Below, piece by piece: positions 1-14,574 of a DNA stretch of 14,783 bases; within the stretch, counting starts at the first letter, position 1; every line of letters starts with the position of its first letter. Source of the stretch: Mycobacterium sp. (GTDB lineage: Bacteria; Actinomycetota; Actinomycetes; Mycobacteriales; Mycobacteriaceae); contig JAOPWF010000479.1 in assembly GCA_025965815.1 (NCBI GenBank), positions 1 through 14,783 on the forward strand, read 5' to 3'. The translations under genes were made by a program, and so were the position numbers. The notes under the pieces were generated by a model. That model was given only the letters and a program-made list of their open reading frames with translations, was not told the origin of the DNA and did no database searches.

Positions 1-17
1 ATAGGGTGTTTCCCTAT
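1..17. terminator. Possible terminator hairpin downstream of msrA
   Basis: ATAGGG and CCCTAT form a perfect 6-bp inverted repeat around a 5-base loop. It begins 23 bases past the msrA stop. The stem touches the window edge, so its full length and any T-tract for the minus-strand transcript cannot be seen. It could end the msrB-msrA transcript or that of a convergent gene outside the window. Confidence 0.3.
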
Positions 18-39
18 TCCTGGGAGCCAGCTGTGAGCG

Positions 40-582
40 TTAGGCCTCTTGCGTAGACCGCTCGCCCGGTTCCGCTCCTCGCTTGCGCGGCGGAAGCTTC
101 CAGTCCGGCCGCGGGAAGTGGCAGGTGTAGCCCCACGGCAGGCGCTCGAGATAGTCCTGATGCTCGGGCTCGGCCTCCCAGAAGTCACCCGCGGGCACGA
201 CCTCGGTGACCACCTTGCCCGGCCACAGTCCCGACGCCTCGACATCGGCGACGGTGTCCAGCGCGATGCGCTTCTGCTCGTCGTCGGTGTAGAAGATCGC
301 CGAGCGATAGCTCATCCCGACGTCGTTGCCCTGGCGGTTCTTCGTGGTGGGATCGTGGATCTGGAAGAAGAACTCCAGCAGCGCCCGGTAGTCGGTGGCG
401 TCGGGATTGAAGGTGATCTCCACCGCCTCGGCGTGGCTGCCGTGATTGCGGTACGTCGCGTTCGGCGTGTCGCCGCCGGTGTAGCCGACGCGTGACGAGA
501 TCACGCCCGGCTGCTTACGGATCAGATCCTGGACACCCCAGAAGCAGCCGCCCGCGAGGATCGCCTTGCTGTAGGTCGTCAT
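40..582 (-). CDS. msrA: Peptide-methionine (S)-S-oxide reductase MsrA
   Basis: This 180-aa cytosolic enzyme reduces the S epimer of methionine sulfoxide in proteins and free methionine, using thioredoxin-type reductant. The family signature GGCFWG is at residues 11-16, with the nucleophile Cys13. The conserved HAEAVEITF stretch carries the likely catalytic Glu52, and Tyr44 precedes it. The only other cysteine, Cys154 in GYTCHF, fits a resolving cysteine. Length is normal for single-domain MsrA. The ATG overlaps the msrB stop (ATGA, 579-582), so the pair is probably translationally coupled and covers both sulfoxide epimers. From memory it is the orthologue of M. tuberculosis Rv0137c, which also sits next to the NTF2-like and SDR genes found downstream here. 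Identification is firm. Confidence 0.97.
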
Positions 583-1040
583 GCCTGCTCCTTCACGTTG
601 TCGAACAACTTGGTGTATTCCCCATATCCTTCCGCCTCAAGATCCTCGAGGCGAATGAACCGCAGGGCCGCCGAATTGATGCAGTAGCGCTGACCGCCTT
701 CGGCCCGCGGACCATCGGGAAACACGTGGCCCAGGTGGCTGTCGCCGTGTGCCGAACGCACCTCGATACGCATCATCACGTGGCTGAAGTCCCGCTTCTT
801 TACGACGTTACCGTCGTCGATGGGCTTGGTGAAGCTCGGCCAGCCGGAGCCGCTGTCGAACTTGTTGACCGACGCGAAAAGCGGCTCACCGGACACCACG
901 TCGACGTAGATCCCGGCGTCCTTGTTGTCCCAGTACTCGCCGGTGAACGGACGCTCGGTCCCGTTCTTCTGCGTGACGTGGTACTGCTCCGGCGACAACG
1001 TGCTGACCGCGGCCGGATTCTTGTTGAACTCCTTCGCCAC
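579..1040 (-). CDS. msrB: Peptide-methionine (R)-S-oxide reductase MsrB, zinc-free type
   Basis: This 153-aa enzyme reduces the R epimer of methionine sulfoxide and complements MsrA encoded downstream. MsrB landmarks are [13 protein letters not shown] (27-39), the SGSGWPSF block (63-70), DSHLGHVF and the catalytic [11 protein letters not shown] with Cys120. The two CxxC pairs that bind zinc in form-1 MsrB are absent: the positions read [10 protein letters not shown] and [13 protein letters not shown]. Cys120 is the only cysteine, and the place where many MsrBs carry a recycling cysteine (SGCGWPSF) is Ser. The GTG start at 1040 is chosen over the upstream in-frame ATG at 1136 because AGGAGG stands just before it and the family homology begins there. 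The gene is first in the msrB-msrA pair and 55 nt downstream of the broken DUF222/HNH gene. Confidence 0.95.
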
Positions 1041-1044
1041 ATGC

Positions 1045-1050
1045 CCTCCT
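1045..1050 (-). promoter_or_regulatory. Consensus ribosome binding site of msrB
   Basis: A perfect AGGAGG (within AAAGGAGGG) lies 4 nt before the GTG at 1040. It fixes the msrB start there. An ATG overlapping this GTG is out of frame. Confidence 0.8.
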
Positions 1051-1095
1051 TTGATGTGTGTCGGGTACAACCTGAAGCGTTGTTCAGAAAGTCCC

Positions 1096-2142
1096 TCAGA
1101 AGGGCGGCGGCTCGTCGTCGCTGCCGGGCGGGGCACCGGTCAGGTAGTTGGCAATCTGCTCTTGTCGTTTTCGTCGTTTCTGCTGGTTCTGGTGTCGTTC
1201 GGTAGTGATGTGGTCGGCCCGGTTCTGCGCTCGGGTGCGCCGGCGCAGGGGCATCATCGCCGTGCGTTCGGTGCACGGCTGGGCGGGTCGTTCAGGGATG
1301 TCGAGATCCCCCGTTGGCGCGCTCAACGCCGGGAACAGCAGCGTGCTGCCCGGAGTAGTCACGTAGGTGTGGCCGGCCGGGGAGGTCCAGATCACCGTGC
1401 CGTCGGGCAGCTGCGTGTCGTGCCAGCGCCAGAACGTCTTGATCAGGTGATGCTTGCGACACATGCACTTCAGGTTCGACGGATGTGTGGGGCCGCCGTC
1501 GCCGTGCGGCACGCTGTGGTCGATATCGCAGCCCACCGCAGGTTGGTCGCAGCCAGGAAACCGGCAGGTCAGGTCGCGGCAGCGAATGAAATCGGCGAGT
1601 CTGGCGGACGGCACGTAGCCGGGCTCGGGTGGCGAGTCGGCGGGATGGATCAGCGGCCGTAACTTGGCCGCCTTCGCCAGTTGGGCGACCAACTCGGCCG
1701 GGATCAGCTGCTCAGCACCGGACAGATACCCGGGGGCATCGCCCGCCCCGTTCACGGTGGCCTGCTCGGCCACCACGTGGATGACGACGTTGCTCGCTGT
1801 GCGTGGCGCGGTCCGTTGCGGGCAGACCGGGTTGTCACACCGGCAGTCCAGCCGATCGGCCCCGGCCGCCAGTACGCCCAGAGCGTCGGCGCGGCGCTGC
1901 GGGCGAGTGCGCGGATCCGCATCACACACCGTGGCCGCCAACGCATTCAGCCGCTGATCCAGGGCGTGCGCGTCGGTGGCGTAGAGACGGCCGTCGATGC
2001 CAGCCATTCCGGCGTCCGTATCCCAGATCGACACCTCCCGGTCGGCCGCGGCCTCACGCTGACGACGTACCGCGTCGCGGTCCACCGCGGCGACGATGAG
2101 ATCGATGCGGTGTTCAGCCGGCCGCGGGTCATCGACGGCCAT
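1096..2142 (-). pseudogene. DUF222/HNH endonuclease (13E12 family), 3' part after a frameshift
   Basis: This is the C-terminal two thirds of a 13E12-repeat-type protein: the rest of DUF222 followed by an HNH nuclease domain. The domain shows paired metal-binding cysteines (CRFPGCDQPAVGCDIDHS) and the HNH core running from DIDHSVPHGDGG through the Asn of SNLKCMCRKHH. It ends in a basic, Gln/Arg-rich tail. Homology starts at about HRIDLIVAAVDRDAV, just after the frame change near 2112; the nominal ATG at 2142 precedes it in a frame with no homology. The first part of the same gene is the 1947-2555 reading frame. Joined, they give roughly 485 aa, normal for the family. These genes are multicopy in mycobacteria, and their biochemical role is not established. 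Whether the split is a real mutation or a one-base sequence error cannot be told here. Confidence 0.85.
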
Positions 2143-2555
2143 CGCGGCGCCCGCACCGCCAACTGCCCATCCACCACGGCCAACACCTGCTCGTCGGTAA
2201 TCAGGTCGGTGCGATACACGATCGTCTGGAACATCCGGAAGTCGATATCACCCGCGGCGAATACCGCCGCGACCCGCGGCGCCCGCTCCCGCATCGCCCG
2301 GGCATACCGCAGATGACTGCCCGCCATCGCCAGACTGATCCGCAACGCCGCAGCAACCTCGGCGGCCACCGCATCCCAGGTGTCGACCGCCCACGTCGCC
2401 GTCTCGCCCGATTCCCGCAGCCGCAACACATAAAACCCGCCTATCGCCGCGAGCCGCCGCGCACAAGCCTGAGCCTCGGAACGCGACGACGCACACACCT
2501 CGTCGATCAGCGCCCTGGTCTCCGCGGTATCCGCCGGGACGAATATGTCGAACAT
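1947..2555 (-). pseudogene. DUF222 N-terminal part of the frameshifted 13E12-family gene
   Basis: Residues from MFDIFVPADTAET to about RWPSMTRGRLN (about 148 aa) are a typical DUF222 start. The homology then continues in the next frame (HRIDLIV...), so frame is lost around 2110-2118. Restoring one base after CTGAAC rejoins the halves. The rest of this frame, to 1947, is out-of-frame sequence. An upstream in-frame ATG exists at 2585. ATG 2555 is preferred because it is overlapped by an SOS box and lies 7 nt past a TATACT -10 element, so the transcript would be leaderless and LexA-controlled. DUF222/HNH genes with SOS boxes on their start codon are known members of the mycobacterial LexA regulon. 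Confidence 0.8.
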
Positions 2556-2563
2556 AGGTTCGA
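2548..2563. promoter_or_regulatory. Perfect LexA (SOS) box on the start of the DUF222/HNH gene
   Basis: TCGAACATAGGTTCGA matches the mycobacterial SOS box TCGAAC-N4-GTTCGA in all twelve fixed positions. It covers the ATG at 2555-2553 and touches the -10 element, so bound LexA would block initiation directly. Confidence 0.85.
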
Positions 2564-2568
2564 GTATA
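2563..2568 (-). promoter_or_regulatory. -10 element for a leaderless DUF222/HNH transcript
   Basis: TATACT on the minus strand lies 7 nt before the A of the ATG at 2555, which is the spacing expected for a leaderless mRNA. No good -35 hexamer is visible. Confidence 0.5.
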
Positions 2569-2602
2569 AGGAACGGGTCGGACAAATCCTCGACAGCGGC
2601 AA

Positions 2603-2616
2603 TAGAACGTGTTCTA
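2603..2616. promoter_or_regulatory. KstR-type operator
   Basis: TAGAACGTGTTCTA is a perfect palindrome that satisfies the published KstR pattern TnnAACnnGTTnnA. KstR is the TetR-family repressor of mycobacterial cholesterol catabolism. The site lies 11-24 nt upstream of the GTG at 2627 and overlaps its likely -10 element, so it should repress the NTF2-like/SDR transcript. It is 39 bp from the SOS box that controls the divergent gene. Confidence 0.75.
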
Positions 2617-2620
2617 GTTT
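2615..2620 (+). promoter_or_regulatory. Candidate -10 element for the NTF2-like gene
   Basis: TAGTTT fits TANNNT and lies 6 nt before the GTG at 2627, with no Shine-Dalgarno sequence between. This suggests a leaderless transcript starting at the GTG. Confidence 0.45.
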
Positions 2621-2626
2621 TCTACT

Positions 2627-3133
2627 GTGACGACCAAGGTCTTTACCCGCGAGGAACTCGCAGCGGCGTTCGAGGTCTTCGAGCAGACGGTTGCCCGTGC
2701 CGCCGAGACCCGTGACTGGGATCCCTGGGTGGAGCAGTACACACCCGATGTGGAGTACATCGAGCACGCGGCAGGCACCTGGAGGGGCCGCGAAGAGGTG
2801 CGTGCCTGGATCTGGAAGACGATGTCCACCTTTCCCGGCAGTCACATGACGTCGTTCCCGTCGTTGTGGTCGGTGATCGACGAGGCGGCCGGGCGGATCA
2901 TCTGCGAACTCGACAACCCGATGGTCGACCCGGGCGACGGCACCATCATCAGCGCGACCAACATCTCGATCGTGACCTACGCCGGCGACGGGAAGTGGCG
3001 CCGGCAGGAGGACGTCTACAACCCACTGCGCTTCGTCGCCGCGACGATGAAGTGGTGCACGAAGGCCGAGGAACTGGGCAACCTCCCCGAGGAAGCGGCC
3101 GACTGGATGCGGCAGTGCGGGCGGCGCAAGTGA
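2627..3133 (+). CDS. NTF2-like (SnoaL-type) protein, Rv0138-like
   Basis: This 168-aa soluble protein has the look of the NTF2/SnoaL cone fold: an N-terminal helix pair (FEVFEQTVARAAETRDWDPWVEQYTPDVEYIEHAAGTWRG, with a typical start-of-barrel pattern), REEVRAWI, then beta-rich segments ending at YNPLRF. The fold serves small hydrophobic ligands as isomerase, hydrolase or binding protein, and no catalytic residues can be assigned with confidence. The GTG start has no ribosome binding site but follows a KstR palindrome and a -10-like TAGTTT, so it is probably leaderless and sterol-regulated. It overlaps the SDR gene by 4 nt (GTGA). KstR control plus an SDR partner suggests a role in sterol or lipid side-chain metabolism, which is inference. 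From memory it corresponds to Rv0138. Confidence 0.85.
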   Translation: MTTKVFTREELAAAFEVFEQTVARAAETRDWDPWVEQYTPDVEYIEHAAGTWRGREEVRAWIWKTMSTFPGSHMTSFPSLWSVIDEAAGRIICELDNPMVDPGDGTIISATNISIVTYAGDGKWRRQEDVYNPLRFVAATMKWCTKAEELGNLPEEAADWMRQCGRRK

Positions 3134-4161
3134 GCGGCCTGCCCAAACTCGTCATCGGTGCCAACGGATTCCTCGGCTCGCACGTCACCCGTCAGCTGGT
3201 GAGCGAGGGGGCCGAAGTCAGGGCGATGGTGCGACCGAACGCCAACACCGTCGGCATCGACGATCTGCACGTGACCCGGTTCGTCGGCGACGTCTTCGAC
3301 ACCGCGACGCTCCGGAAAGCCATGGCCGGCTGCGATGTCGTCTATTACTGCGTCGTCGACACCCGCGCCTGGCTCAGTGACCCGGCGCCGCTGTTCCGCA
3401 CCAACGTCGACGGGCTGCGCAACGTCCTGGACGTCGCCAGCCAAGAAGGCGTGGCCGGCGGCCTGAAACGCTTCGTGTTCACCAGCAGCTACGTGACGGT
3501 CGGGCGCCGCCGCGGCCACCGGGCCACCGAAGAAGACACCATCGGGACGCGCGGGCTGAGCCCGTACGTCCGCTCCCGGGTGCAGGCCGAGGAGATGGTG
3601 CTGCGCTACGCCCGGGATTCCGGCCTTCCCGCGGTCGCGATGTGTGTGTCCACCACCTACGGCAGCGGCGACTGGGGCCAGACTCCGCACGGTGCGATCA
3701 TCGCCGGTGCCGCCTTCGGCAAGCTGCCGTTCGTCATGAGTGGCATCTCCCTGGAAGTGGTCGGGGTCGACGACGCCGCCCGGGCGTTGATCCTGGCCGC
3801 CGAGCACGGCCGCAACGGCGAACGCTACCTGATCTCGGAAAAAATGATCACCAACACGGAGGTGGCGCGCATCGCCGCGGAAGCCGCCGGAGTGCCGCCA
3901 CCGAGCAGGTCCATCCCACTGCCGGTGATGTACGGCCTTGCCGCCATGGGCAGCCTCAAGGCGCGGCTCAAAAAGACCGACGAGCGGCTGACCCTCGGCT
4001 CGGTCCGGCTGATGCGCGCGGAGGCCGAGGTGGACAGCGGCAAGGCAGAACGCGAACTCGGTTGGCGCCCTGCACCGGTCGAAGACTCGATCCGCGCGGC
4101 GGCCCAGTTCTGGGTCGGTCTGCGCGACGCGAAGCGCAACAGTAAGGCGGCCGGCCACTAG
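3130..4161 (+). CDS. Extended SDR: NAD-dependent epimerase/dehydratase, 3-beta-HSD-like
   Basis: This 343-aa extended short-chain dehydrogenase has the NAD(P)-binding GANGFLG motif at residues 10-16, VVYYCVVDTRAW in the next strand region, TSSY at 118-121 (active-site Ser) and a substrate domain after residue 170. At the YxxxK active site the sequence is YVRSR (Tyr146, Arg150), so the usual Lys is Arg. The GTG start at 3130 overlaps the stop of the NTF2-like gene; earlier in-frame starts lie inside that gene and have no homology. The pair shares the KstR-controlled promoter. Members of this family oxidise or epimerise sterols and sugars; the substrate here is unknown. From memory it is orthologous to Rv0139. 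Confidence 0.88.
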   Translation: MSGLPKLVIGANGFLGSHVTRQLVSEGAEVRAMVRPNANTVGIDDLHVTRFVGDVFDTATLRKAMAGCDVVYYCVVDTRAWLSDPAPLFRTNVDGLRNVLDVASQEGVAGGLKRFVFTSSYVTVGRRRGHRATEEDTIGTRGLSPYVRSRVQAEEMVLRYARDSGLPAVAMCVSTTYGSGDWGQTPHGAIIAGAAFGKLPFVMSGISLEVVGVDDAARALILAAEHGRNGERYLISEKMITNTEVARIAAEAAGVPPPSRSIPLPVMYGLAAMGSLKARLKKTDERLTLGSVRLMRAEAEVDSGKAERELGWRPAPVEDSIRAAAQFWVGLRDAKRNSKAAGH

Positions 4162-4171
4162 CCTCGACGCC

Positions 4172-4993
4172 GTGACTGCCGACAAGGTTCGCGTCGATCT
4201 GAGCGGCGCGCCGCAGACCATGCTCGCGACGCTGTACGCGAAGGCGCTCGACGCCGACGCTGCCCATCCGATCCTCGGCGACCGGTACGCCAAGGAGATC
4301 GTCGAGCGGATCGACTACGACTGGAAGAAGACCACGATCACCGCGCGCACCGCTCCGTCGGTGACCACCCGGTCGGCGCACTTCGACAACTGGGTCCGGC
4401 AATTCCTGGCCGTCCATCCGCAGGCCGTGGTGCTGCACCTCGGCTGCGGGCTGGACAGCCGATTCTTCCGGCTGGAGCCCGGCCCCGGGGTCGAGTGGTA
4501 CGACGTCGACTATCCCGACGTCGCAACGCTGCGGGCGCAGCTGTATCCCGAGCGGGAGCACTACCACGTCGTCGCCGCGTCGGTCACCGACCCGGCGTGG
4601 CTGGCGGAGATACCGGGGGACCGCCCAGTTCTGATGATCGGCGAAGGACTGACGATGTATCTCACCGACCAGGACGGCATCGCGCTGCTGCGCCGAGTCG
4701 TCGACCACTTCCCGTTCGGGGAGCTGCAATTCGACGCGTTCAACTCGCTGGGCACCAAGTCGCAATGGACCAACGCTGTGGTGCGCCGGTCGGGATCAAC
4801 GCTGCACTGGGCGATCAACGGCCCCGACGACATCATCGAGGCGGTGCCGGGCGTGCGGCTGCTGGCCTGGGTGTCGCCGTTCGACTCCGACACCTTCAAA
4901 CGAGTCCCCCGCGCCTACCGCGTGATGGCCAAGGTCATGTCGCTGGTGCCCGCCATGCGCTACATGGCGCAGTACCACCGCTACGCGTTCTGA
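4172..4993 (+). CDS. SAM-dependent O-methyltransferase, leucine carboxyl methyltransferase/TcmP family
   Basis: This 273-aa class I methyltransferase carries the SAM-binding glycine loop VLHLGCGLDSR at residues 87-97, followed by VEWYDVDYP (108-115), whose acidic residues normally hold the ribose, and GEGLTMYL further on. The pattern is that of the LCMT/TcmP family, which methylates carboxyl or hydroxyl groups of small molecules; the substrate cannot be read from the sequence. The GTG start lies 10 nt after the SDR stop with no clear ribosome binding site, so it is probably the third gene of the NTF2-like/SDR transcript. The sequence downstream is gene-poor. It is unrelated in sequence to the CrtT-like methyltransferase in the carotenoid operon. 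Confidence 0.88.
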   Translation: MTADKVRVDLSGAPQTMLATLYAKALDADAAHPILGDRYAKEIVERIDYDWKKTTITARTAPSVTTRSAHFDNWVRQFLAVHPQAVVLHLGCGLDSRFFRLEPGPGVEWYDVDYPDVATLRAQLYPEREHYHVVAASVTDPAWLAEIPGDRPVLMIGEGLTMYLTDQDGIALLRRVVDHFPFGELQFDAFNSLGTKSQWTNAVVRRSGSTLHWAINGPDDIIEAVPGVRLLAWVSPFDSDTFKRVPRAYRVMAKVMSLVPAMRYMAQYHRYAF

Positions 4994-5141
4994 CGCATGC
5001 CGAGCACCGGCTGTTTGCACCGTCCGTCACTGAAATCGGCGGCCCACGGCCAGCGACCGCGCCCGTCCGCTCACACCAGCTGTACGGCCCGGAACTCGCT
5101 GCCGTAAAACGCCACCGCCGCGTACATGTGCGCGTCGGGGC

Positions 5142-5300
5142 GGGTACGTCGGGCACGGGGTCACCGTCACAACCTGGCGGGTCGGACGCTCGCCGACCTC
5201 GTGCTGGGCCGCGAGACGCCGTTGACGGCACTGCCCTGGGGTGAATCACCGCTCCCGCAACTGGGATCCCGAGCCGCTGCGCTGGCTGGGGGTTGCTGAT
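5142..5300 (+). pseudogene. Remnant of a FAD-dependent (DAO-type) oxidoreductase C-terminus
   Basis: Three short stretches in alternating frames read as one protein end: GYVGHGVTVT (5142-5171), NLAGRTLADLVLGRE and following residues to LPW (5171-5239), then VNHRSRNWDPEPLRWLG (5241 on). GHGVT...NLAGRTLADL followed by HRSR.WEPEPLRWLG is typical of the end of DAO-fold flavin oxidoreductases in mycobacteria. Two frame changes and the missing N-terminal part show that the gene is dead. It may mark a deletion or an older gene arrangement between the methyltransferase and the DUF427 gene. Confidence 0.65.
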
Positions 5301-5476
5301 CGAGTTAGCCGCCTGCGATACATCAGCCATACTGCGGTGCGCTGCCACTTCAGCCAGCTCCAAGCTGACCCCGATATCTGACGGTGGGAGCTGCAACGCC
5401 TCGGTCAACAGCTGTCATGGCGCGCGAAATGGACCGGCTATGAGCGACCTCCGGAAGAAAAGACGAGTCCTGGCAC

Positions 5477-5517
5477 GTTGCCTCTGAGATACGCCACCCG
5501 CGTTCAAGAGAGGCAAC
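5477..5517. repeat. 9-bp inverted repeat covering the DUF427 ribosome binding site
   Basis: GTTGCCTCT (5477-5485) and AGAGGCAAC (5509-5517) are exact reverse complements separated by 23 bases. The right arm contains the likely Shine-Dalgarno AGAGG before the ATG at 5521. In RNA the hairpin would hide the ribosome binding site; in DNA it could be a protein-binding site. Confidence 0.55.
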
Positions 5518-5520
5518 ATC

Positions 5521-5895
5521 ATGAGTGACCGTCCCGTACTCCAGCCCACCGCCGAGCATCCGATCACCGTCGAACCCACCGGCAAGCACGTGACGGTGCG
5601 GGTCAACGGCGAGGTCGTCGCGGACACCGACGACGCGCTGACGCTGCAGGAGTCCACCTATCCCGCGGTGCAGTACATCCCGTTACGCGACGTCGTGCAG
5701 ACCGTGCTGCAGCCCAGTGACACCACCACCTACTGCCCGTTCAAGGGCGACGCGAGCTACTACAGCGTCACCACAGCCGGCGCCACCGTGGACGACGCGA
5801 TCTGGACCTACGAACAGCCCTACGAGGCGGTCGCCGGCATCGCCGGACATGTCGCGTTCTACCCGAACAAGGCCGACGTCGCCGTCACGCCTTAG
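5521..5895 (+). CDS. DUF427 family protein, Rv0140-like
   Basis: This 124-aa protein consists of one DUF427 domain. Recognisable blocks are HPITVEPTGKHVTVRVNGEVVADT (a beta-rich start), the LTLQEST..VQYIPLRDV stretch, the conserved TYCPFKGDASYYS and the C-terminal AIWTYEQPYEAV..IAGHVAFYPNKADV. The family is a small beta-barrel of unknown biochemical function and is widespread in actinobacteria. ATG 5521 is preceded by AGAGG at about 7 nt, inside an inverted-repeat arm. Its stop overlaps the stop of the convergent Rieske gene (5892-5895), so the two transcripts must run into each other. From memory it is orthologous to Rv0140. Confidence 0.9.
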   Translation: MSDRPVLQPTAEHPITVEPTGKHVTVRVNGEVVADTDDALTLQESTYPAVQYIPLRDVVQTVLQPSDTTTYCPFKGDASYYSVTTAGATVDDAIWTYEQPYEAVAGIAGHVAFYPNKADVAVTP

Positions 5896-6905
5896 CGGCG
5901 GCTGCGCACGGCGTACAGCCGCTCGGCATAGGCGAGGTCGTCGCGCCACAGTCGGGTCGCCGCGTGCCGCATCAGCGGGGTGATCAGCGCCGTGACCCGG
6001 CGCGCCTGGGCGAAGCCGGTGCGGTCGGAGTGCGCGATGACCGCCTCGATCACCGCGGTAAGCGGCCCACCGTCGGGTCCCGGACCGACCGGGGTGGCGT
6101 GCGTCTCGACGACGCTGCCGGTCCCTTCGCCGTCGACGATCCGCATCACGATGGTGCGGCGTTCCGGGCTGGTGAACTCGGCGATCACCGGAACCCCCAG
6201 TCGGCCGATGCGGAAGGTCACGGCGACCAGGAACCGGTCGTCGGCCGGGTCCGCGCCGTCGTCGTCGGTGGTGGGTGAGCTGAGCACCTCGAGGCTGGTA
6301 AACGAGTAGGGGTGGAGCCACGCCCCGTGCCACGGGTCGAGGCGGTTGGCGATGACGTCGGACGGTTCGCAGACGCCGACCAGCCGGGTAACGGCGTGCA
6401 ATTGAGCGCCGCTCGGCCGCACCGGGATGACTGGCCGGTCGAGTGGTTCTTCGCCGCCGACGGCGTCCAGCCGGACCCACGCCAGCACACCGTCGTCGTG
6501 GCAGCGGAACGGCCGCCAGCCGAATTCGCGCCTGCCGTCCAGGCGCAGCCCGTGCCAAGGACAGATCAAGGTGCCGCAGTCGATCGTTCCAGTGGACAGG
6601 TCGGCGCCCAGGTGCGGGCACGATCCGGGACCCACATGCAGCCCGTTTTCCTCGTCACGCCAGGCGACGATCTCGATCCCGCCGACCGACACCCCGAACG
6701 GCCGGTTCCGGACAATGTGGTCGCTGGCGGCGAACACGAACCAGTTGCCCGAGGGGCGTCGTTGCGACCGCTGTAGCGCGGCGTCGATGATGGCCGGTTG
6801 CGCGTCGCGGTAGGTGGGACGTTGGCCGCTCCACCGCAACCGTGGAAGCAGTTGCAGTGGAGAGCGTTTCGACCACCGCATACTCATGCCGGTACGGTTG
6901 CTCAT
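5892..6905 (-). CDS. Rieske non-heme iron oxygenase (DUF5914-like) of the carotenoid operon
   Basis: This 337-aa protein has an N-terminal Rieske [2Fe-2S] domain with Cys96-x-His98 and Cys115-x-x-His118 (CPH...CPWH). The C-terminal part carries Asp190-x2-His193-x4-His198 (DPWHGAWLH), the signature of the mononuclear iron site in Rieske oxygenases. Asp322 or Asp323 in RDDLAYAE may be the third ligand. It is therefore probably a catalytic oxygenase and not merely an electron carrier. No ferredoxin or reductase gene is adjacent. It is the last gene of the crt operon, its ATG overlapping the crtU stop (ATGA). Position suggests oxidation of a carotenoid, perhaps an aromatic end group, but no such activity can be proven from sequence. 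It is convergent with the DUF427 gene. Confidence 0.88.
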   Translation of the reverse strand: MSNRTGMSMRWSKRSPLQLLPRLRWSGQRPTYRDAQPAIIDAALQRSQRRPSGNWFVFAASDHIVRNRPFGVSVGGIEIVAWRDEENGLHVGPGSCPHLGADLSTGTIDCGTLICPWHGLRLDGRREFGWRPFRCHDDGVLAWVRLDAVGGEEPLDRPVIPVRPSGAQLHAVTRLVGVCEPSDVIANRLDPWHGAWLHPYSFTSLEVLSSPTTDDDGADPADDRFLVAVTFRIGRLGVPVIAEFTSPERRTIVMRIVDGEGTGSVVETHATPVGPGPDGGPLTAVIEAVIAHSDRTGFAQARRVTALITPLMRHAATRLWRDDLAYAERLYAVRSRR

Positions 6906-8437
6906 CGCTGTGGCTGCCTTTCTCCGCCGGCGAGCCGGCGCAATGTCGCGGAACGGCCCTGAACGGGGACGGTGTGCAAGGGGTGACCGGCCAGCCCCCA
7001 GTGCGCCAGCAGCCGGTTGCCCGCCGACCAGCCGGTGGTGGCGGCGCGCTCCATCAGGGCCACCGGCAGATCGATGCGGATGCCGTCACCGGCAAGGGCG
7101 AGGGCGGGGTGGGGCGTGGCAATGCCAGGGCGCCGGGCGTGGTCGCCGGGCGCGAACTGCGGGCAGTCGTTGCGGGTCAAGATGCGTTCGTCGACGATGT
7201 TCGCCCGCGCCGTCTCGGGATACAGCGCGTGCAGCCGGTCGAGCAGACGCCCGCGCAGCCCGTCACCGGCCCGCCCGCGCGGCACGGCATACGAGTGCAA
7301 CTCCACGACGGAGCCGCCGGTCCGGCGTGCCCATTCGGCGGCTTGATGCTCGTAGCGCTCGAGCACGCTGACATTGTCCAGCGGCTCCAGACCGCCGGTG
7401 CCGAGAAACGGGGGCCGGTCGGCCGCGACGGGCCGGTCCAGCCACAGTCGCTGCACGACGAACGGCTGCGCGGTGCGCATCTCCCCGACCCGGGAGCGCC
7501 AGCCGGCGTCGCCGAGGTCGGGGGAACTCGCGGCGATGCGTTGCAGCCCGGCGACATCGGCGGCCAGCACGACACCGTCGGCGTCGACGTGCTCTCCGCC
7601 GGCATGTACCCGGAAGGGTTGTGCCGCATCGGTTTCAATCGCGTCGACGGTGGTACCGGTACGGAACCGCACGCCACGGCTCAGCAGGTACTCCCGCAGT
7701 GGCTCCCACAGGCAGGTGTCGAAGTTGTCGTCGGCGACATCGAAGATCAGGCCCTCGCTGGAGCCAAGGAAGTAGATGTGGAACATGGCGGCGAGCTCGG
7801 CGGCCGACAACTGCGCGGGCTCGGCGAAGAAGCTCCTCGAGAACACCTCGAACGCCAGATGCCTTGCCGCGGCGGGGAAGTTGATCTGCTCGAGGAAGGC
7901 CTCGGCGTCCAGATGATCGAGCCGGTGATAGATGTCCGGCACCGACACCGCCGCCAGCGGCGCAGCGGCGCGCGCGTTGAGCTGCACCAGGTCCCGCAGC
8001 CGGAAGGTGGGGCTGCGCAACGCGAATGCCACCGCGTTCCACGGTGGTGTGCGGGGCAGTCCGTGGAAGGTGTCGCGGCGGCCCTGGGCGTCCACCAGCG
8101 GGTAGTCGTCGACCGGTGTCAGCCTGCACAGCGCAGGGTCGGTGCGCCGCAGCAGGTTGCGCAGGTTGTAGTACTGGCGGAAGAAGGCGTGGAAGCCGCG
8201 GTTCATCGCGACGTCGGTGCCGTCGGGAAGTTTCTCGGTCCAGCCGCCGACCCGCCCGCCGAGGTAGCCCTCGCGCTCGATCACCTCCACGGTCACACCG
8301 CGTTCGGCCAGTCCGGTCGCGGCGGCCAGCCCCGCGATGCCGGCGCCCACCACCACCGCGCGCGGCCGCGAGGCCAGCTGCCCGGCGTCCAAGGCCCCGT
8401 TCAGCCCAGGATGCAACACGCGGCGCGGATCGGTCAT
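6902..8437 (-). CDS. crtU: Beta-carotene desaturase/methylase CrtU (carotenoid phi-ring synthase)
   Basis: This 511-aa flavoprotein belongs to the CrtI-like FAD amine-oxidase superfamily. The dinucleotide motif GAGIAGL is at residues 31-37, with Glu54 at the end of the second strand and GYLGGRVGGW after it. MNRGFHAFFRQYYNLRNLLRR (from residue 78) is the strongest CrtU marker and is absent from phytoene desaturases. CrtU desaturates the beta-ionone ring and shifts a methyl group to give the aromatic phi ring, turning beta-carotene into isorenieratene. The start ATG 8437 overlaps the methyltransferase stop (ATGA); the longer open frame up to 8872 runs through the methyltransferase gene. The function is assigned by family and by the lycopene cyclase genes encoded upstream in the operon. 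Confidence 0.9.
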   Translation of the reverse strand: MTDPRRVLHPGLNGALDAGQLASRPRAVVVGAGIAGLAAATGLAERGVTVEVIEREGYLGGRVGGWTEKLPDGTDVAMNRGFHAFFRQYYNLRNLLRRTDPALCRLTPVDDYPLVDAQGRRDTFHGLPRTPPWNAVAFALRSPTFRLRDLVQLNARAAAPLAAVSVPDIYHRLDHLDAEAFLEQINFPAAARHLAFEVFSRSFFAEPAQLSAAELAAMFHIYFLGSSEGLIFDVADDNFDTCLWEPLREYLLSRGVRFRTGTTVDAIETDAAQPFRVHAGGEHVDADGVVLAADVAGLQRIAASSPDLGDAGWRSRVGEMRTAQPFVVQRLWLDRPVAADRPPFLGTGGLEPLDNVSVLERYEHQAAEWARRTGGSVVELHSYAVPRGRAGDGLRGRLLDRLHALYPETARANIVDERILTRNDCPQFAPGDHARRPGIATPHPALALAGDGIRIDLPVALMERAATTGWSAGNRLLAHWGLAGHPLHTVPVQGRSATLRRLAGGERQPQR

Positions 8438-9159
8438 TGCGGCCCGTCCGCGAGGAAAGTATGCACGACGTTGCGCTGCCAGCCCGGCATGGTTTCGCTG
8501 TGCACCGCGGTGAACCCGGCGTCGCGCAATCTTTTCCGCAGCGGCCCGGCGCCGTCGAACGCCGCGACACTGCGCCACAGATGCCGGTAGAGCGTGGCGT
8601 CGCGGGTCTGCCGCCAGCCCAGCGGGATGATGATGCCCCAGCACACCGCGTGCCACACCGACGTCGCCAGGCGCGAGTCGCGGACCGAGTACTCGTGCAG
8701 GGCAAGCGTCGCGCCGGGCCTCAGCAGGGTGCGGAACCTCTCCAGCTGGGCATCCGGATCGGCCAGGTTGCGCAGCAGGTACGCGGCGAGGATTCCGTCG
8801 AACGGCCCGTCCACGCCAGCGTCCGCGAGCCCTTCGATCGGGGTGTGCACGAACCGGACCGAGGACGGCCACGGCTTGCGGACCGCCTCGTCGAGCATCC
8901 CCTTCGACGCGTCGACGGCGACGATCTCGGCGTGTGGTGCGACGGACAGCAGGGCGGCGGTGGATGCCCCGGTGCCGCAGCCCGCGTCGAGCAGCCGCAG
9001 CCCGCGGCCGTCATCGGGAATTCGCATGCGGCGCGCCGACATTCGCAGGTGTTGGTGATATCCGGGGTTGGCGTTGACCAGCCGGTCGTAGGCGGCGGCA
9101 CCGCCGTCGAACGCGGCCGGTACCTCGCCGCGGGACAACCCGCCGTGACCGACACTCAT
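8434..9159 (-). CDS. crtT: CrtT-like class I SAM methyltransferase
   Basis: This 241-aa methyltransferase of the UbiE/type-11 fold has LLDAGCGTGAST at residues 56-67, the acidic strand end VAVDAS (Asp83) and the LLRNLADPDAQLERFRTLLRPGATLALHEYS block typical of the family. A hydrophobic segment (SVWHAVCWGIIIPLGW) suggests membrane association. Streptomyces isorenieratene clusters have a methyltransferase called crtT next to crtU and crtY, and the location here matches, though its reaction is not established. Starts overlap by 4 nt on both sides (crtYd upstream, crtU downstream). With the Rieske oxygenase in the same operon, O-methylation of a hydroxylated carotenoid is a reasonable guess. Confidence 0.8.
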   Translation of the reverse strand: MSVGHGGLSRGEVPAAFDGGAAAYDRLVNANPGYHQHLRMSARRMRIPDDGRGLRLLDAGCGTGASTAALLSVAPHAEIVAVDASKGMLDEAVRKPWPSSVRFVHTPIEGLADAGVDGPFDGILAAYLLRNLADPDAQLERFRTLLRPGATLALHEYSVRDSRLATSVWHAVCWGIIIPLGWRQTRDATLYRHLWRSVAAFDGAGPLRKRLRDAGFTAVHSETMPGWQRNVVHTFLADGPQ

Positions 9160-9491
9160 GTTGGTTCATCCTGCGCCTCGGTTGCCCGCGACCGCTGCCT
9201 TTCCCACAGCAGCAACACCGCCGTCACCAGTGCGAAGCCGAACAGGAAGTCTTCGACCGGGATGTCGAAGGGGAACCGCAGGCCGCTGATGTGACGCTCG
9301 TCGTAGAGCACGATCGGCGCGCTCAGCTTGGTGAGCCAGCCGTCGACCGGGATCTGGAAGCCGAGCACGATCACCATTGACAGCCAGTAGGCCGGCTTGC
9401 GGAACAGCCCCGTCCGTAGCACCGCGAGTTCACCGATGACTACGACGACGACGGCCAACAGCGCCGGCAGTGTGTAGCCGAGGCCCATCAT
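9156..9491 (-). CDS. crtYd: Lycopene cyclase subunit CrtYd
   Basis: This 111-aa membrane protein is the second half of the actinobacterial heterodimeric lycopene beta-cyclase. Three membrane segments are visible (about 6-26, 34-50, 80-96). The conserved acidic motif before the last one reads PVEDFLFGF (78-86), and the protein ends in a charged tail. Two ATG codons start it (9491 and 9488); the first overlaps the crtYc stop as ATGA. Longer open frames upstream are out of frame with crtYc and can be ignored. CrtYc and CrtYd act together to cyclise both ends of lycopene to beta-carotene, the CrtU substrate. Confidence 0.9.
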   Translation of the reverse strand: MMGLGYTLPALLAVVVVVIGELAVLRTGLFRKPAYWLSMVIVLGFQIPVDGWLTKLSAPIVLYDERHISGLRFPFDIPVEDFLFGFALVTAVLLLWERQRSRATEAQDEPT

Positions 9492-9823
9492 CGGACCTGC
9501 TTCACGCGCTTTGTGAGCCGGTGCACCAGCGTGCTCACCGCGTTGTAGGTGAGCAGGCCGCACAACGGGATCACCAGGAAGAACAGCACTTCCTCCAACG
9601 GAATGTGGCCGGGCAGTTCGATACCAGTCATGTAGGCCGGGTTGTAGCTCCACAGGTGCCCCCCGATGGCCACGGCGTCCCAGATCAGAAAAACGACGGC
9701 CACCGGGAGTATCGCTTTGGCGGTGCGCAACGGCTGCCGGTAGACCCCGGGGCCGAACAGTTCCAGCGGTGCGGTGATCACCAGGCAGGCGCCCAGCACG
9801 ATCAGGTACTGACACCGGTCCAT
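9488..9823 (-). CDS. crtYc: Lycopene cyclase subunit CrtYc
   Basis: This 111-aa membrane protein is the partner of CrtYd. Three hydrophobic segments (about 5-24, 38-55, 78-97) flank the family motif PLEEVLFF (75-82), matched by PVEDFLFGF in CrtYd; the repeat reflects ancestral duplication of one three-helix unit. Both subunits are required for cyclase activity in characterised actinobacterial systems. The start ATG (9823-9821) shares one base with the crtB TGA, giving a TGATG junction that favours coupled translation. Lengths of the two subunits are equal and typical. Confidence 0.9.
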   Translation of the reverse strand: MDRCQYLIVLGACLVITAPLELFGPGVYRQPLRTAKAILPVAVVFLIWDAVAIGGHLWSYNPAYMTGIELPGHIPLEEVLFFLVIPLCGLLTYNAVSTLVHRLTKRVKQVR

Positions 9824-10785
9824 CAGGCCGCCCCGATGTCGGAACCCCGGGCCGGCTGGGCGTCACAGCGGCGGGCCCGCCATGCCTGCGCCAGGCCGGA
9901 GCCGGCAACCCGCAGCCGTCGCGCCGTGCCGACTGTGGCGCGCCTGTTGAAGACGGCGAAGTCGTCGGCCTCGATGCGGTCGAGGATCTCGGAGTACAGG
10001 GTCAGTGCCGTCGCCACGCACGGGCGTGACCGCGGCGCGAGCAGGTTCACCCCGTTCCGGGCGAATCGGTAGACCCCGCGGGTGATGTCGTGCTGTTCGG
10101 CCAGTGCCCGACGCACCCGTGGATCGGTGCGACGGTGGGTGTGGCACCACATCAACAGGTCGCGGTCCACTTCGAACGCGGCCAACTCGTCGGCGGGAAG
10201 GTAGACCCGGTTACGGCTGAGGTCCTCGTCCACGTCACGCAGGAAGTTGGTCAACTGGAACGCTTTTCCGAGGGCGGCCGCATACGGCGCCGCCTCCGCG
10301 GCCGGGCCGACGGTACCCAGCACCGGCAGTAGTTGCAGCCCAATGACTTCCGCTGAGCCACGCATGTAGCTGTTGAGGGCCGCGCGGTCGGGGTAGTCGG
10401 TGATGCTCAGGTCCATCCGCATCGAGCGCAGGAAGTCCTCGAACAGGTCCGACGCGATGTTGTATGTACGTGCGGTGTGCAGAACGGCCGCGAGCACCGG
10501 GTCGTCGCTGTGGTCGTCGCCGGCGAAGAACTCGTCGGCGAGCCGGTGCAGCCGCGCAGCCCGGACTTCGGCGTCCAGGCTGGGGTCGAGGTCGTCGAGG
10601 ATGTCGTCGGCCTGGCGGGCGAAGCCGTAGAGGGCGTGCACCGCGGGCCGCTGCGCCGGCGTGAGCAGTCGGGTCGCCAGGAAGAAGGTGCGGCCGTGCC
10701 GGGCGTTGAGTTCCCGGCAGCGACGGTAGGCACTGCGCAGGCGTGGGTCGCGCACTCCGGCCGCGTCCAGTTCGGATCGAATCAC
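9823..10785 (-). CDS. crtB: Phytoene synthase CrtB
   Basis: This 320-aa prenyltransferase joins two GGPP molecules to phytoene, the first committed carotenoid step. Both Mg-diphosphate-binding motifs are intact: DDILD in RQADDILDDLD (from Asp60), and Asp184-Asp188 in QLTNFLRDVDED. ALYGFARQAD and RNRVYLP are further squalene/phytoene-synthase signatures, and the length is normal. The start is GTG at 10785, overlapping the crtI stop (GTGA) and preceded by GAAAGGGG with 6-nt spacing, a strong ribosome binding site. Its substrate must come from a GGPP synthase encoded elsewhere, because the candidate gene upstream of crtI is a remnant. Confidence 0.96.
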   Translation of the reverse strand: MIRSELDAAGVRDPRLRSAYRRCRELNARHGRTFFLATRLLTPAQRPAVHALYGFARQADDILDDLDPSLDAEVRAARLHRLADEFFAGDDHSDDPVLAAVLHTARTYNIASDLFEDFLRSMRMDLSITDYPDRAALNSYMRGSAEVIGLQLLPVLGTVGPAAEAAPYAAALGKAFQLTNFLRDVDEDLSRNRVYLPADELAAFEVDRDLLMWCHTHRRTDPRVRRALAEQHDITRGVYRFARNGVNLLAPRSRPCVATALTLYSEILDRIEADDFAVFNRRATVGTARRLRVAGSGLAQAWRARRCDAQPARGSDIGAA

Positions 10786-12308
10786 GGCTGACCCCTTTCG
10801 GACGACAGGGCGGGAGGGGTCCCGGTCGGCGCCGCGGGCACACCGGTGATCCGGTCGGCGGCCAGCCGGCCGGAGAGCATCGCGGTCGGCACGCCGACGC
10901 CGGGCACCGTCGAGGAACCGGCGAGCACGGCATTGTCGACGCCGCGCACCGTGTTGGCCGGCCGGAAGGGGCCCGTCTGGCCGAACGTGTGGGCCAGCGC
11001 GAACGGTGTCCCCGCCGCCATCCCCTGGCGTCCCCAGTCATCCGGGGTGACGACGTACAGCACCTCGGCGTCGGAGCCGAGGCTGGGCAGCAGCCGGTCC
11101 GCGACCGTGCCGATGATCTGGTCGGCGTAGGCACTGCCGGTCTGCGCCCAGTCGATGTCACCGCGGGCGAGGTTCGGGGCAGGCGCGAGGATGTAGAGCA
11201 GGTCCCGATCGTCCGGGGCGAGAGTGGGATCACTGGCCGTCGGCCGGGTGACCAGCAGCGACGGGTCATGCATCAACGCTCCGTCGCGGATGATGTCGGT
11301 GAAGGTCTCCTTCCACGCCGCGCCGAACAGGATGTTGTGGTGCGCGGTCGCCGGTTCGAGGGCGCGGGTGCCGACATGCACCACCACCGCCGACGGCGCG
11401 TGCCGCACCGACAGCATCCGGCGTGGTTGCCGGCCCAGCAGCTCGTAGGTCTGGGGCAGTTCGGTGGTCAGCACGACCGCATCGCACGCGATCCGCTCGT
11501 TGTCGGTGCGCACCGCGGTGATCCGGTCGCCCGAGCGTTCCAGCGCCGTCACCGGCGAGCCGTACCGGAACGTGACGCCCGCGTCGACAGCGGCCGCGGC
11601 CAGCGCGTCGGGCAGCGCCCGCATCCCGCCGCGCGGGAAGTACACCCCCGCGACGGTGTCCATGTAGGCGATGACCGCGTACACCGCCAGCGCCTGCTGG
11701 GGCGGAACTCCGGCGTAGAGGGCCTGGAAGGTGAAGATCCGCTGCAGCCGCTCGTCGGCGAGGAACCGCCGGACCACGCGGTCCCAGCGGCGGAAACCGC
11801 CGATCGCCGCGAGCCGGGCGAGCTGCGGCGTCAGCAGCGACAGGGGTGAATCGAAGTTGGCGGCGATGAAGCCGTCGAACTCGGTGCGATACAGCTTGCC
11901 CAGCCACTCCCGCAGGCGCAGATAGCCGGACGCTTCGTCCGGGCCGGCGAATTCCTCGACGGCCGCGACCATCCGGTCGGCATCGGTGTGCACGTCGATG
12001 GCGCTGCCGTCGGCGAACGAGGCGCGATAGGCGGGCGTCACCGGCAGCAGGTCGAGCCGGTCGGCGGGTGTCTCGCCGACGGCCGCGAACGCGTCGTCGA
12101 TGATGTCGGTCATCGTGAGCACCGTCGGGCCGGTGTCGATCCGGTAGCCGTGGGTGTCGATCCGGCCGACGCGGCCGCCCGGCACGGTGTCGCGCTCCAC
12201 CACGGTCACTTCGCGGCCACGGCCGGCCAGCTGCAGCGCCGCGGACAGCCCTGCCAGCCCGGCGCCCACGACGACCACATGATCGGTGCTGCCGCCGACG
12301 GTACGCAT
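10782..12308 (-). CDS. crtI: Phytoene desaturase CrtI
   Basis: This 508-aa FAD-dependent desaturase converts phytoene to lycopene in successive dehydrogenations. The FAD-binding motif VVGAGLAGL is at 13-21, followed by VVERDTVPGGRVG. The C-terminal bacterial phytoene-desaturase signature reads NAVLAGSSTVPGVGVPTAMLSGR, including the conserved PGxGVP element. ATG 12308 is preceded immediately by an in-frame GTG (12311). AGGAG lies 7 nt before the GTG and 10 nt before the ATG, so either start is possible. The open frame reaching 12623 is upstream sequence without homology. It is the first intact gene of the operon and lies 25-28 nt after the stop of a GGPP-synthase-like remnant. Confidence 0.95.
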   Translation of the reverse strand: MRTVGGSTDHVVVVGAGLAGLSAALQLAGRGREVTVVERDTVPGGRVGRIDTHGYRIDTGPTVLTMTDIIDDAFAAVGETPADRLDLLPVTPAYRASFADGSAIDVHTDADRMVAAVEEFAGPDEASGYLRLREWLGKLYRTEFDGFIAANFDSPLSLLTPQLARLAAIGGFRRWDRVVRRFLADERLQRIFTFQALYAGVPPQQALAVYAVIAYMDTVAGVYFPRGGMRALPDALAAAAVDAGVTFRYGSPVTALERSGDRITAVRTDNERIACDAVVLTTELPQTYELLGRQPRRMLSVRHAPSAVVVHVGTRALEPATAHHNILFGAAWKETFTDIIRDGALMHDPSLLVTRPTASDPTLAPDDRDLLYILAPAPNLARGDIDWAQTGSAYADQIIGTVADRLLPSLGSDAEVLYVVTPDDWGRQGMAAGTPFALAHTFGQTGPFRPANTVRGVDNAVLAGSSTVPGVGVPTAMLSGRLAADRITGVPAAPTGTPPALSSERGQP

Positions 12309-12336
12309 CACCCACACACTCCTGAACCGTTGAAGT

Positions 12337-12568
12337 TCATGCCGCCCGCGCGGTGCAGGTGGCCGCCATGCTGACCAGCGCGGCCTGCATCGTCCCGTCG
12401 ACCTGGCTGTCGTTGATCTGCTCGTGGGCGATGGGTGGTGACGTACCGCGAGGTTTCGTCGAGAACGGCCTGCCTGACACCGTTTCGCCAGGTGTCGAAC
12501 CCGGCCTCGTAGGCGGTCAGCGGCGGTTCGGGCGCGGGCGTCAGCAGCCATCCGTTGATACGGCCCAC
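12337..12568 (-). pseudogene. Probable remnant of a GGPP synthase (crtE/idsB-like) gene with internal deletion
   Basis: From the GTG at 12568, preceded by GAAAGGG at 5 nt, the frame reads VGRINGWLL, then PPLTAYEAGFDTWRNGVRQ, then AVLDETSRYV. This resembles the N-terminus of actinobacterial polyprenyl diphosphate synthases. After about 46 codons the sequence continues one frame over as AHEQINDSQVDGTMQAALVSM...CTARAA and a stop at 12337, which looks like a plausible protein C-terminus. The total is 232 nt, one base more than 77 codons. The simplest reading is a gene that lost its middle, including both Asp-rich motifs, with the join near 12428-12434. The assignment rests on short similarity plus position just upstream of crtI, where crtE is common; an unrelated small frameshifted gene is the alternative. 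Confidence 0.5.
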
Positions 12569-12631
12569 TGTCGCCCTTTCCCCAAAAGGTCCTGCCGCTC
12601 GCCGCCCGTGGCGCGAACCGCACTTCTGTTG

Positions 12632-12659
12632 ATACCCCGCCGCGGCGATTGCAACCACC
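12632..12659 (-). promoter_or_regulatory. SigF-like promoter of the crt operon
   Basis: On the minus strand, GGTGG (12659-12655) and GGGTAT (12637-12632) are separated by 17 nt. The -10 is a perfect match to the mycobacterial SigF consensus GGGTAY. The -35 is weaker against GGWWT. Transcription would start near 12625, some 55 nt before the remnant's GTG. SigF control of carotenoid production is reported in M. smegmatis. Confidence 0.55.
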
Positions 12660-12665
12660 GGAGAA

Positions 12666-12680
12666 ACGTGACGATCACGT
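12666..12680. promoter_or_regulatory. 15-bp palindrome upstream of the crt promoter, possible operator
   Basis: ACGTGA and TCACGT are perfect reverse complements around CGA. The site lies 7 bp upstream of the candidate crt -35 and between the crt operon and the divergent TetR transcript, a usual position for a TetR-type operator or an activator site. Confidence 0.45.
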
Positions 12681-12729
12681 CATCTATTCGCCGGTGGCGG
12701 CCGCGGGAGTCGCCTTCCGCGCCGAAACC

Positions 12730-12735
12730 TATGAT
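12730..12735 (+). promoter_or_regulatory. -10 element for the SDR-remnant/TetR transcript
   Basis: TATGAT differs from TATAAT at one position and lies about 39 nt before the ATG at 12769. A convincing -35 was not found. Confidence 0.4.
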
Positions 12736-12768
12736 CTCCTCACATGCGTTAAGGGGGAGGTAAAGCCC

Positions 12769-12915
12769 ATGCAGTCGAGTACACGCGGCTCGGTGCTCGA
12801 CCTGTTTCGACTGGCCAACGCGGTCGCCGTCGTGGTGGTGTTCCTGGCCGGACCCGCGTCCAGCTACATCACCGGCGTCACACTCGCCATCGATGGCGGG
12901 ACCTCCGGTCACTGA
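12769..12915 (+). pseudogene. 48-codon remnant of a short-chain dehydrogenase C-terminus
   Basis: The frame ends VVVVFLAGPASSYITGVTLAIDGG followed by TSGH, the standard end of a classical SDR (...FLAS..ASYITG..L.VDGG). The Rossmann motif and the catalytic Ser-Tyr-Lys are missing, so it cannot be an active dehydrogenase. The ATG at 12769 is preceded by GGGGGAGG with 8-nt spacing, an unusually good ribosome binding site for a dead gene, so a 48-aa peptide may still be made. It sits 9 nt upstream of the TetR gene and would be cotranscribed, possibly serving only as a leader that carries ribosomes to the regulator. Confidence 0.65.
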
Positions 12916-12924
12916 GAGCGGGAC

Positions 12925-13566
12925 ATGCCACGACCCACGAAACCGCTGATCACCCGAGCGATCGCCGTGCAGGCATCGATCGAGATCATCGACGCCGATG
13001 GCCTCGACGCGTTCAGCCTGCCGCGGCTGGCGGAGCATCTCGGTGTACGTGCCCCGTCGCTGTATCACCACTTCTCCGATAAGAGTGAGATCCTTGCCGC
13101 CGTGGCCCGTCAGATCGCCGGTGCGTCGATCCGCCCGCGGCGCAAGCCGGGACCGGACTGGCCGGAGTACTTCGTCGCCCTCGCAGTGAACTTCCGGCAC
13201 GCCATCCTGCGGCACCGCAATGCCGCCCCGGTGCTGCTTGCGCACCTGCCCCGCGACGTGCTCATCGGCGGCTACGAGGACAGCGCGCGGTTCCTGCACG
13301 CCTCCGGTGTGCCGCTGGGACTGCACGTGCGGATCCTGGACGGAATGGAGACCCTGTCGATCGGCGCTGTGCTAACCGAGGCGGTCCGGCCGCCGGGCAA
13401 GAGGGGCGGAATCTTCCCCAACGTCGATCCGGTGTCCCAGCCGCTGCTCACCAGCGCACTGGCCGCCAACGAACTCACCTCGGGGCAGCTGTTCGAGGAG
13501 ATGGTCCGCAGCTTCCTGTGCGGGGTGATCCGCGAAACCGGTGACCCGACGCCGGGGGTGAAGTGA
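12925..13566 (+). CDS. TetR/AcrR family transcriptional regulator
   Basis: This 213-aa repressor-type protein has the TetR N-terminal DNA-binding domain. Helix 1 is ITRAIAVQASIEIIDADGLDAFSLP, and the helix-turn-helix is RLAEHLGVRAPSLYHHFSDKSEILAAV (34-60), including the family hallmark SLYHHFSDKSEIL. The C-terminal ligand domain is not recognisable as a specific subfamily. It is transcribed away from the crt operon, with the ACGTGA-CGA-TCACGT palindrome in the shared upstream region, so it may regulate itself and the crt genes; that is inference. The stop overlaps the glycosylase start by 4 nt (GTGA). Confidence 0.9.
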   Translation: MPRPTKPLITRAIAVQASIEIIDADGLDAFSLPRLAEHLGVRAPSLYHHFSDKSEILAAVARQIAGASIRPRRKPGPDWPEYFVALAVNFRHAILRHRNAAPVLLAHLPRDVLIGGYEDSARFLHASGVPLGLHVRILDGMETLSIGAVLTEAVRPPGKRGGIFPNVDPVSQPLLTSALAANELTSGQLFEEMVRSFLCGVIRETGDPTPGVK

Positions 13567-14501: not shown

Positions 14502-14508
14502 CGCCTGC

Positions 14509-14535: not shown

Positions 14536-14574
14536 ACGCGGGAAGACAGACGATCATGCGCGAAGGAGCAATTG

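Follow-up and report, generated by a model that had tools for sequence, protein, structure and literature searches.

A CrtV-type Rieske oxygenase gene at the end of a mycobacterial crt operon and its probable role in aromatic-carotenoid hydroxylation

What does a Rieske oxygenase do as the last gene of an operon for the aromatic carotenoid isorenieratene? The question is raised by a stretch of Mycobacterium sp. DNA (assembly GCA_025965815.1, contig JAOPWF010000479.1, positions 1 to 14,783; the whole 14,783-nucleotide stretch is hereafter the window), in which the final gene of a carotenoid (crt) operon (5892..6905, minus strand) encodes a CrtV-type Rieske oxygenase of 337 residues, identified from its open reading frame (ORF), Pfam domains (PF00355 and PF19299/DUF5914) and alignment. 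We conclude that this protein is probably the mycobacterial CrtV, a Rieske monooxygenase that hydroxylates the aromatic ring ends of carotenoids made by the desaturase/aromatase CrtU, and that the methyltransferase CrtT then methylates the product. The observations behind this reading are the complete domain and ligand set, the fold, the operon position, a Pfam family shared with a Streptomyces-like gene next to crtB, the association with crtU, the nesting of CrtT, and the replacement of the gene by a cytochrome P450 gene in one lineage. From them we infer the substrate, the position of attack, the sequence in which the enzymes act, methylation at oxygen and not at carbon, the subunit assembly and the electron partner.

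Association with crtU and nesting of CrtT

In a class-wide sample of 374 genomes, CrtU was searched with the window protein as query (E ≤ 1e-50), together with CrtT (E ≤ 1e-30) and PF19299/DUF5914. The best first-look candidates were scored (four per genome for CrtU, up to eight for PF19299, seven for CrtT and up to 21 for P450), and weak extra copies may escape these counts. CrtU is present in 88 genomes, DUF5914 in 80 and CrtT in 79; DUF5914 occurs only together with CrtU (80/80), as does CrtT (79/79), and the 286 other genomes contain none of the three. At genus level, DUF5914 is found in 17/117 and CrtU in 20/117. A naive Fisher test of the Rieske gene against CrtU gives 6e-73, a p-value that is far too small because genomes within the samples are related and not independent. 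A phylum-wide sample of 296 genomes gives the same picture, with DUF5914 in 15 genomes, all of them among the 17 that have CrtU, and with every one of the 15 genes adjoining crtB or crtU.

CrtT is nested one level deeper. All 79 CrtT genomes of the class sample possess one of two oxygenases, the Rieske gene in 74 and a P450 in five, and CrtT without either was found in 0/79. Rieske genes without CrtT occur in six of the 80 genomes (G260, G506, G510, G513, G518 and G623), an absence that was re-checked at the crt loci. The initial annotation had raised the possibility that the gene always accompanies crtU and crtT; this holds for crtU in all 80 Rieske genomes and fails for crtT, which accompanies 74 of them. 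Two nested sets, CrtT inside the carriers of either oxygenase and these inside the CrtU genomes, would be the trace expected of a pathway running from CrtU through a hydroxylase to a methyltransferase, and they support such a pathway. The UbiE family, to which CrtT belongs, consists largely of C-methyltransferases, so O-methylation by CrtT is not secure.

Named loci, taken as the best 80 of 532 relatives and drawn mostly from mycobacteria with two from Nocardia, contain crtU in 78 and crtT in 76 cases within the fetched DNA. The loci lacking crtU are L049 and L052; crtT is missing from the operon in L089, L094 and L100 and is cut off by the contig end in L047. Two loci from records labelled as a Bifidobacterium breve metagenome-assembled genome (MAG), L045 and L055, carry a mycobacterial-type crt operon with a 66–68% identical Rieske protein; mislabelling or mixed binning is the probable cause. 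Within a single record set of uncultured Mycobacterium, two contigs (L033 and L034) carry crt operons with identical match figures and represent a duplicate contig or a recent duplication.

A cytochrome P450 in place of the Rieske gene

Eight CrtU genomes of the class sample lack DUF5914. Three of them (G192, G436 and G628) have a divergent CrtU alone, 43–44% identical to that of the window, with no CrtT, no Rieske gene and no P450. The other five (G198, G375, G577, G625 and G634) have an ordinary CrtU (50–54% identical) and CrtT, and in 5/5 an orthologous P450 lies within the crt cluster (L143:8558-9874, with orthologues in G375, G577, G625 and G634; the other four are 63–96% identical to the G198 copy). 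PF00067 was confirmed for the G198 P450, the one copy scanned. The P450 gene of G198 comes after crtU and overlaps it by 4 bp, the arrangement seen for the Rieske gene in the window; the P450 stands directly after crtU in four of the five clusters (G198, G375, G577 and G634). It is a haem enzyme and unrelated to the Rieske protein.

The two oxygenases do not occur together in this sample. Leaving aside the three divergent-only genomes, the remaining 85 comprise 80 with the Rieske gene, five with the P450, none with both and none with neither; G454 is counted among the 80 despite its divergent CrtU. No P450 orthologue was found in the 80 Rieske genomes, four of which show relatives of 43–45% identity, either on a contig other than that of crtU or at least about 60 kb away from it. 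A search of 75 others, made up of 72 genomes lacking CrtU and the three divergent-only ones, likewise gave no orthologue; two of these show relatives of 40–41% identity. Named sources among the best 120 matches to this P450 include Isoptericola, Serinicoccus and Ornithinimicrobium. G625 and G451 belong to one genus, and G451 has the Rieske gene.

A tree was built from 47 CrtU proteins, selected from among the loci available. It groups the P450 clusters in a single clade (node value 98*) that sits inside a larger one containing Rieske clusters, and the exchange is therefore counted as one event, not five. Taken together, the exchange and the nesting support the order CrtU, ring hydroxylase, methyltransferase. 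We lean towards the wider reading that DUF5914 is a Rieske family dedicated to aromatic-carotenoid ring hydroxylation, that a P450 took over this step in one actinobacterial lineage, and that CrtT uses the product of either enzyme. To our knowledge, a Rieske family dedicated to this reaction has no characterised precedent. For the hydroxylated isorenieratene of Brevibacterium, involvement of a P450 has been suggested.

The Rieske protein, its operon and related loci

The initial annotation described a catalytically complete oxygenase translationally coupled to crtU, and both points are borne out. The Rieske ligand pairs C96-x-H98 (6612..6620) and C115-x2-H118 (6552..6563) and the mononuclear iron motif D190-x2-H193-x4-H198 (6312..6338), all on the minus strand, are invariant in 105/105 aligned sequences, and the surroundings of the iron motif, NRLDPWHGAW-x-HP, are invariant in a 15-row alignment. 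The candidate third iron ligand is D322-D323 (5937..5942, minus strand), a pair that is also invariant in 105/105 rows. A structural alignment with dicamba monooxygenase extends to the end of the C-terminal helix that holds this pair; judged from where that alignment ends, and by the ligand numbering of dicamba monooxygenase, D323 is favoured over D322. Aligning this helix by sequence alone to two paralogous Rieske proteins that the genome encodes gave too weak a match to pick between them.

The window protein has the two-domain fold of Rieske oxygenase alpha subunits. Structural matches were used for fold class alone, and the lack of a family among them was not taken as evidence. A sequence profile search of the PDB aligned little outside the Rieske domain. 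The best sequence match in the PDB is the hydroxylase KshA. Among the matches listed, KshA (3-ketosteroid 9-alpha-hydroxylase), dicamba monooxygenase and guaiacol O-demethylase (7qwt) are 13–18% identical to the window protein over the fold; the window protein differs from all three in that its catalytic domain forms a separate Pfam family, DUF5914, and in its genomic context. With guaiacol and dicamba O-demethylases as the nearest folds, the enzyme could be imagined to remove a methyl group added by CrtT, a role that we regard as very improbable. Because the folds include O-demethylases while the top sequence match is KshA, fold and PDB matches decide neither for a hydroxylase nor for an O-demethylase.

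For ring hydroxylation, which we prefer, the following course is envisaged. Electrons from a ferredoxin and reductase encoded elsewhere would reach the C2H2 Rieske cluster in an adjacent subunit and from there cross the bridging D190 to the iron held by H193, H198 and D322/D323, where O2 would be activated. Hydroxylation would take place at the ring ends, most likely at C-3 of the isorenieratene phi ring, at one or both ends. CrtT would then methylate the hydroxylated product, presumably on the oxygen of the phenol so formed, and the resulting aromatic carotenoids would bear one or two methoxy groups. The earlier expectation that the electron-transfer partner is encoded elsewhere is compatible with a Pfam scan of 19 ORF queries from the window, which returned no ferredoxin or ferredoxin-reductase domain.

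All genes of the operon lie on the minus strand in the order crtI-crtB-crtYc-crtYd-crtT-crtU-Rieske, and each junction overlaps by 1 to 4 bp, including 4 bp between crtU and the Rieske gene. From ORFs and domain matches, they encode phytoene desaturase CrtI (TIGR02734, 10782..12308, with its start placed at an ATG inside the longer ORF 10782-12623), phytoene synthase CrtB (PF00494, 9823..10785), the lycopene cyclase halves CrtYc (PF18916, 9488..9823) and CrtYd (PF18916, 9156..9491, starting at an ATG that overlaps the crtYc stop), the UbiE-like S-adenosylmethionine (SAM) methyltransferase CrtT (PF01209, 8434..9159), and the beta-carotene desaturase/aromatase CrtU of the amino-oxidase family (PF01593, 6902..8437). 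crtE lies outside the operon, and polyprenyl synthase genes are found on three other contigs of the genome, whose assembly is 81% complete. The strict form of the SigF promoter, GTTT-N14-18-GGGTA, has no match in the window; a relaxed match upstream of crtI was rejected, its spacing being off relative to the published consensus. Scans of positions 5300 to 7200 found no promoters or terminators.

The next neighbour past the Rieske gene is a DUF427 gene on the opposite strand. Also past the operon end, window positions 2627-4993 (plus strand) encode consecutively a SnoaL-like protein, an NAD-dependent epimerase and an LCM-type SAM methyltransferase. A DUF222 gene (1096-2585, minus strand) is broken across two overlapping frames, with profile positions 121-306 at 1096-2142 and 3-125 at 1947-2585; on this pattern it would be a frameshift, genuine or assembly-made.

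Elsewhere, a divergent CrtU (about 42–44% identical to that of the window) lies off the crt operon and adjoins a CrtI-like gene (29–32%) in L119 (G296), L120 (G307), L156 (G071), L172 (G454) and L177 (G566), and its function may differ from that of ordinary CrtU. We dropped the idea that operons of the L049 type signify no aromatic carotenoids, because such a divergent CrtU is present at another place in G296, which contains L049, and in G454.

The cyclase also varies. Ten genomes with a Rieske operon (those of L030, L035, L041, L063, L079, L088, L093, L097, L049 and L052), some of which are incomplete MAGs, have no CrtYc/CrtYd match (PF18916) anywhere, and in nine of them a strong PF05834 match of the CrtY/CrtL cyclase type is present elsewhere. 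The lycopene cyclase type thus appears to have been exchanged between closely related operons. In L018 (979-2499, minus strand; genome G260), the Rieske/DUF5914 frame continues stop-free to a total of 507 residues across a CrtYc tblastn match (1132-1422), within which Pfam does not call a cyclase domain; in G510, which shares the family code of G260, the open frame stops after the Rieske protein. The L018 frame may encode the oxygenase fused to one half of the lycopene cyclase.

Streptomyces CrtV and the weighing of the published record

A role for this enzyme type has been proposed in Streptomyces. A 2018 study classed CrtaV among the Rieske non-haem iron oxygenases; what the cluster contains and the metabolites it yields led the authors to propose CrtaV as a leprotene (isorenieratene) hydroxylase and CrtaT as a methyltransferase, without a gene-by-gene demonstration of the hydroxylase role (PMC5993118). 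Carrying both crtV and crtT, the S. argillaceus cluster yielded leprotene, beta-isorenieratene, 3-hydroxyleprotene and 3,3'-dihydroxyleprotene in S. albus, together with three methylated derivatives proposed by molecular formula, of which dimethylated 3,3'-dihydroxyleprotene was the main product; the empty-vector control was unpigmented, and single genes were not deleted (PMC5993118). The oxygenated and possibly methylated aromatic carotenoid suggested by the initial annotation fits the genomic pattern of hydroxylation followed by methylation, and its description as unassigned is only partly right because roles for CrtV and CrtT had already been proposed.

The same product list bears on the order of steps. 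A CrtZ/CrtR-type 3-hydroxylation of the beta ring before CrtU, which would then aromatise hydroxylated ends, predicts identical gene associations, and the Streptomyces-like gene follows crtB rather than crtU. The S. argillaceus list names no hydroxylated beta-ring carotenoid (PMC5993118), and for this reason hydroxylation after aromatisation is favoured. Furthermore, the Rieske gene is found in 0/286 genomes without CrtU, which presumably include makers of other cyclic carotenoids. We consider beta-ring hydroxylation before aromatisation unlikely.

Several observations weigh against hydroxylation of aromatic ring ends by the window protein. S. griseus is reported to need neither crtT nor crtV to make isorenieratene, and isorenieratene to be the endpoint of most Streptomyces pathways (both PMC5993118, citing others); the M. 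smegmatis pigment is likewise given simply as isorenieratene (PMC4694148). S. albus J1074 carries its own isorenieratene cluster (PMC3992020), a possible contributor to the S. albus metabolites. The proposed product is unreported in several hosts that have, or possibly have, the Rieske gene. Both O-demethylases and hydroxylases are among the nearest solved folds. On the CrtU tree the P450 exchange took place once and is kept across three family codes, so that it counts for less than five separate exchanges; similar P450s are numerous (1794 proteins at E ≤ 1e-60), and the P450 of G625 sits at the opposite end of the operon, upstream of crtYc. Extra crtU copies in L121 (G305) and L163 (G451) have no Rieske gene alongside. 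In L049 and G454, crtT and the Rieske gene lie in a crt operon without crtU, only a 42%-identical CrtU being present elsewhere, and the genome of L052 (G297) has no CrtU match.

Two further roles can be weighed at this point. The operons without crtU (crtI-crtB-crtT-Rieske in L049 and L052, crtI-crtB-crtYc-crtYd-crtT-Rieske in G454) would suit an enzyme that acts on another or additional lipid or an acyclic carotenoid, its association with crtU being linkage only. Against this, both G296 and G454 retain a divergent CrtU as well as a lycopene cyclase, G297 is a 3.7-Mb MAG, and the association with CrtU is genome-wide (80/80); such a substrate is highly unlikely. That association, and the tight coupling in the window, would equally suit a helper of CrtU that performs a permissive oxidation for the methyl shift and leaves no hydroxyl in the product. 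The dispensability of crtV in S. griseus, the divergent-CrtU genomes that have neither Rieske gene nor P450, and the nesting of CrtT, which a helper leaves unexplained, all argue against it, and we give this role very little credence.

If ring hydroxylation is correct, many pigmented mycobacteria make hydroxy- or methoxy-isorenieratenes rather than plain isorenieratene, and mycobacterial and streptomycete pigments called isorenieratene are probably incompletely described. The Pfam family DUF5914 would gain a function and Rieske enzymes would join the carotenoid hydroxylases. The product 3,3'-dihydroxyleprotene is credited with superior photoprotective properties (PMC5993118, citing others), and the Rieske/P450 exchange makes the 2018 hypothesis testable by swapping single genes in laboratory hosts.

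The CrtV hypothesis itself is published for Streptomyces; new relative to the literature found are the nesting across genomes, the exchange with a P450 and the mycobacterial extension. In a search outside which subscription papers lay, we found none of these three (an earlier report is possible), no literature on DUF5914 and no direct test of the CrtV hydroxylase role. The available portions of PMC9789016, PMC4694148, PMC7693655, PMC3992020, PMC2889829 and PMC8539372 do not discuss the Rieske enzyme. The last gene of the M. smegmatis crt locus, MSMEG_2343, is annotated as a 'methylesterase' (PMC4694148), and S. coelicolor crtV (SCO0188) is listed as a 'putative methylesterase' (PMC8539372). 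Since 'methylesterase' is the old name for crtV, MSMEG_2343 is probably the counterpart of the Rieske gene of the window.

The closest known system is Streptomyces CrtV, which is also a Rieske protein encoded alongside crtU and crtT in a crt cluster. In 8/8 phylum-sample genomes of one Streptomyces-like genus (6.1–9.2 Mb), which make up eight of the 15 with DUF5914, a DUF5914 gene stands directly after crtB, in the crtV position, with crtT-crtU nearby in an opposite-strand operon, and its product is 54–57% identical to the window protein. This layout is the crtEIBV/crtYTU arrangement of PMC5993118 and of S. coelicolor SCO0185-0191 (PMC8539372), and by it, together with genome size, we judge the genus to be Streptomyces. 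Because the family and the layout match and the CrtV role is already in print (PMC5993118), the window gene, compared here with the gene in the crtV position rather than with a named CrtV sequence, is most likely the mycobacterial CrtV. The two differ in place: the Streptomyces-like gene follows crtB, whereas the window gene follows crtU and closes one continuous operon.
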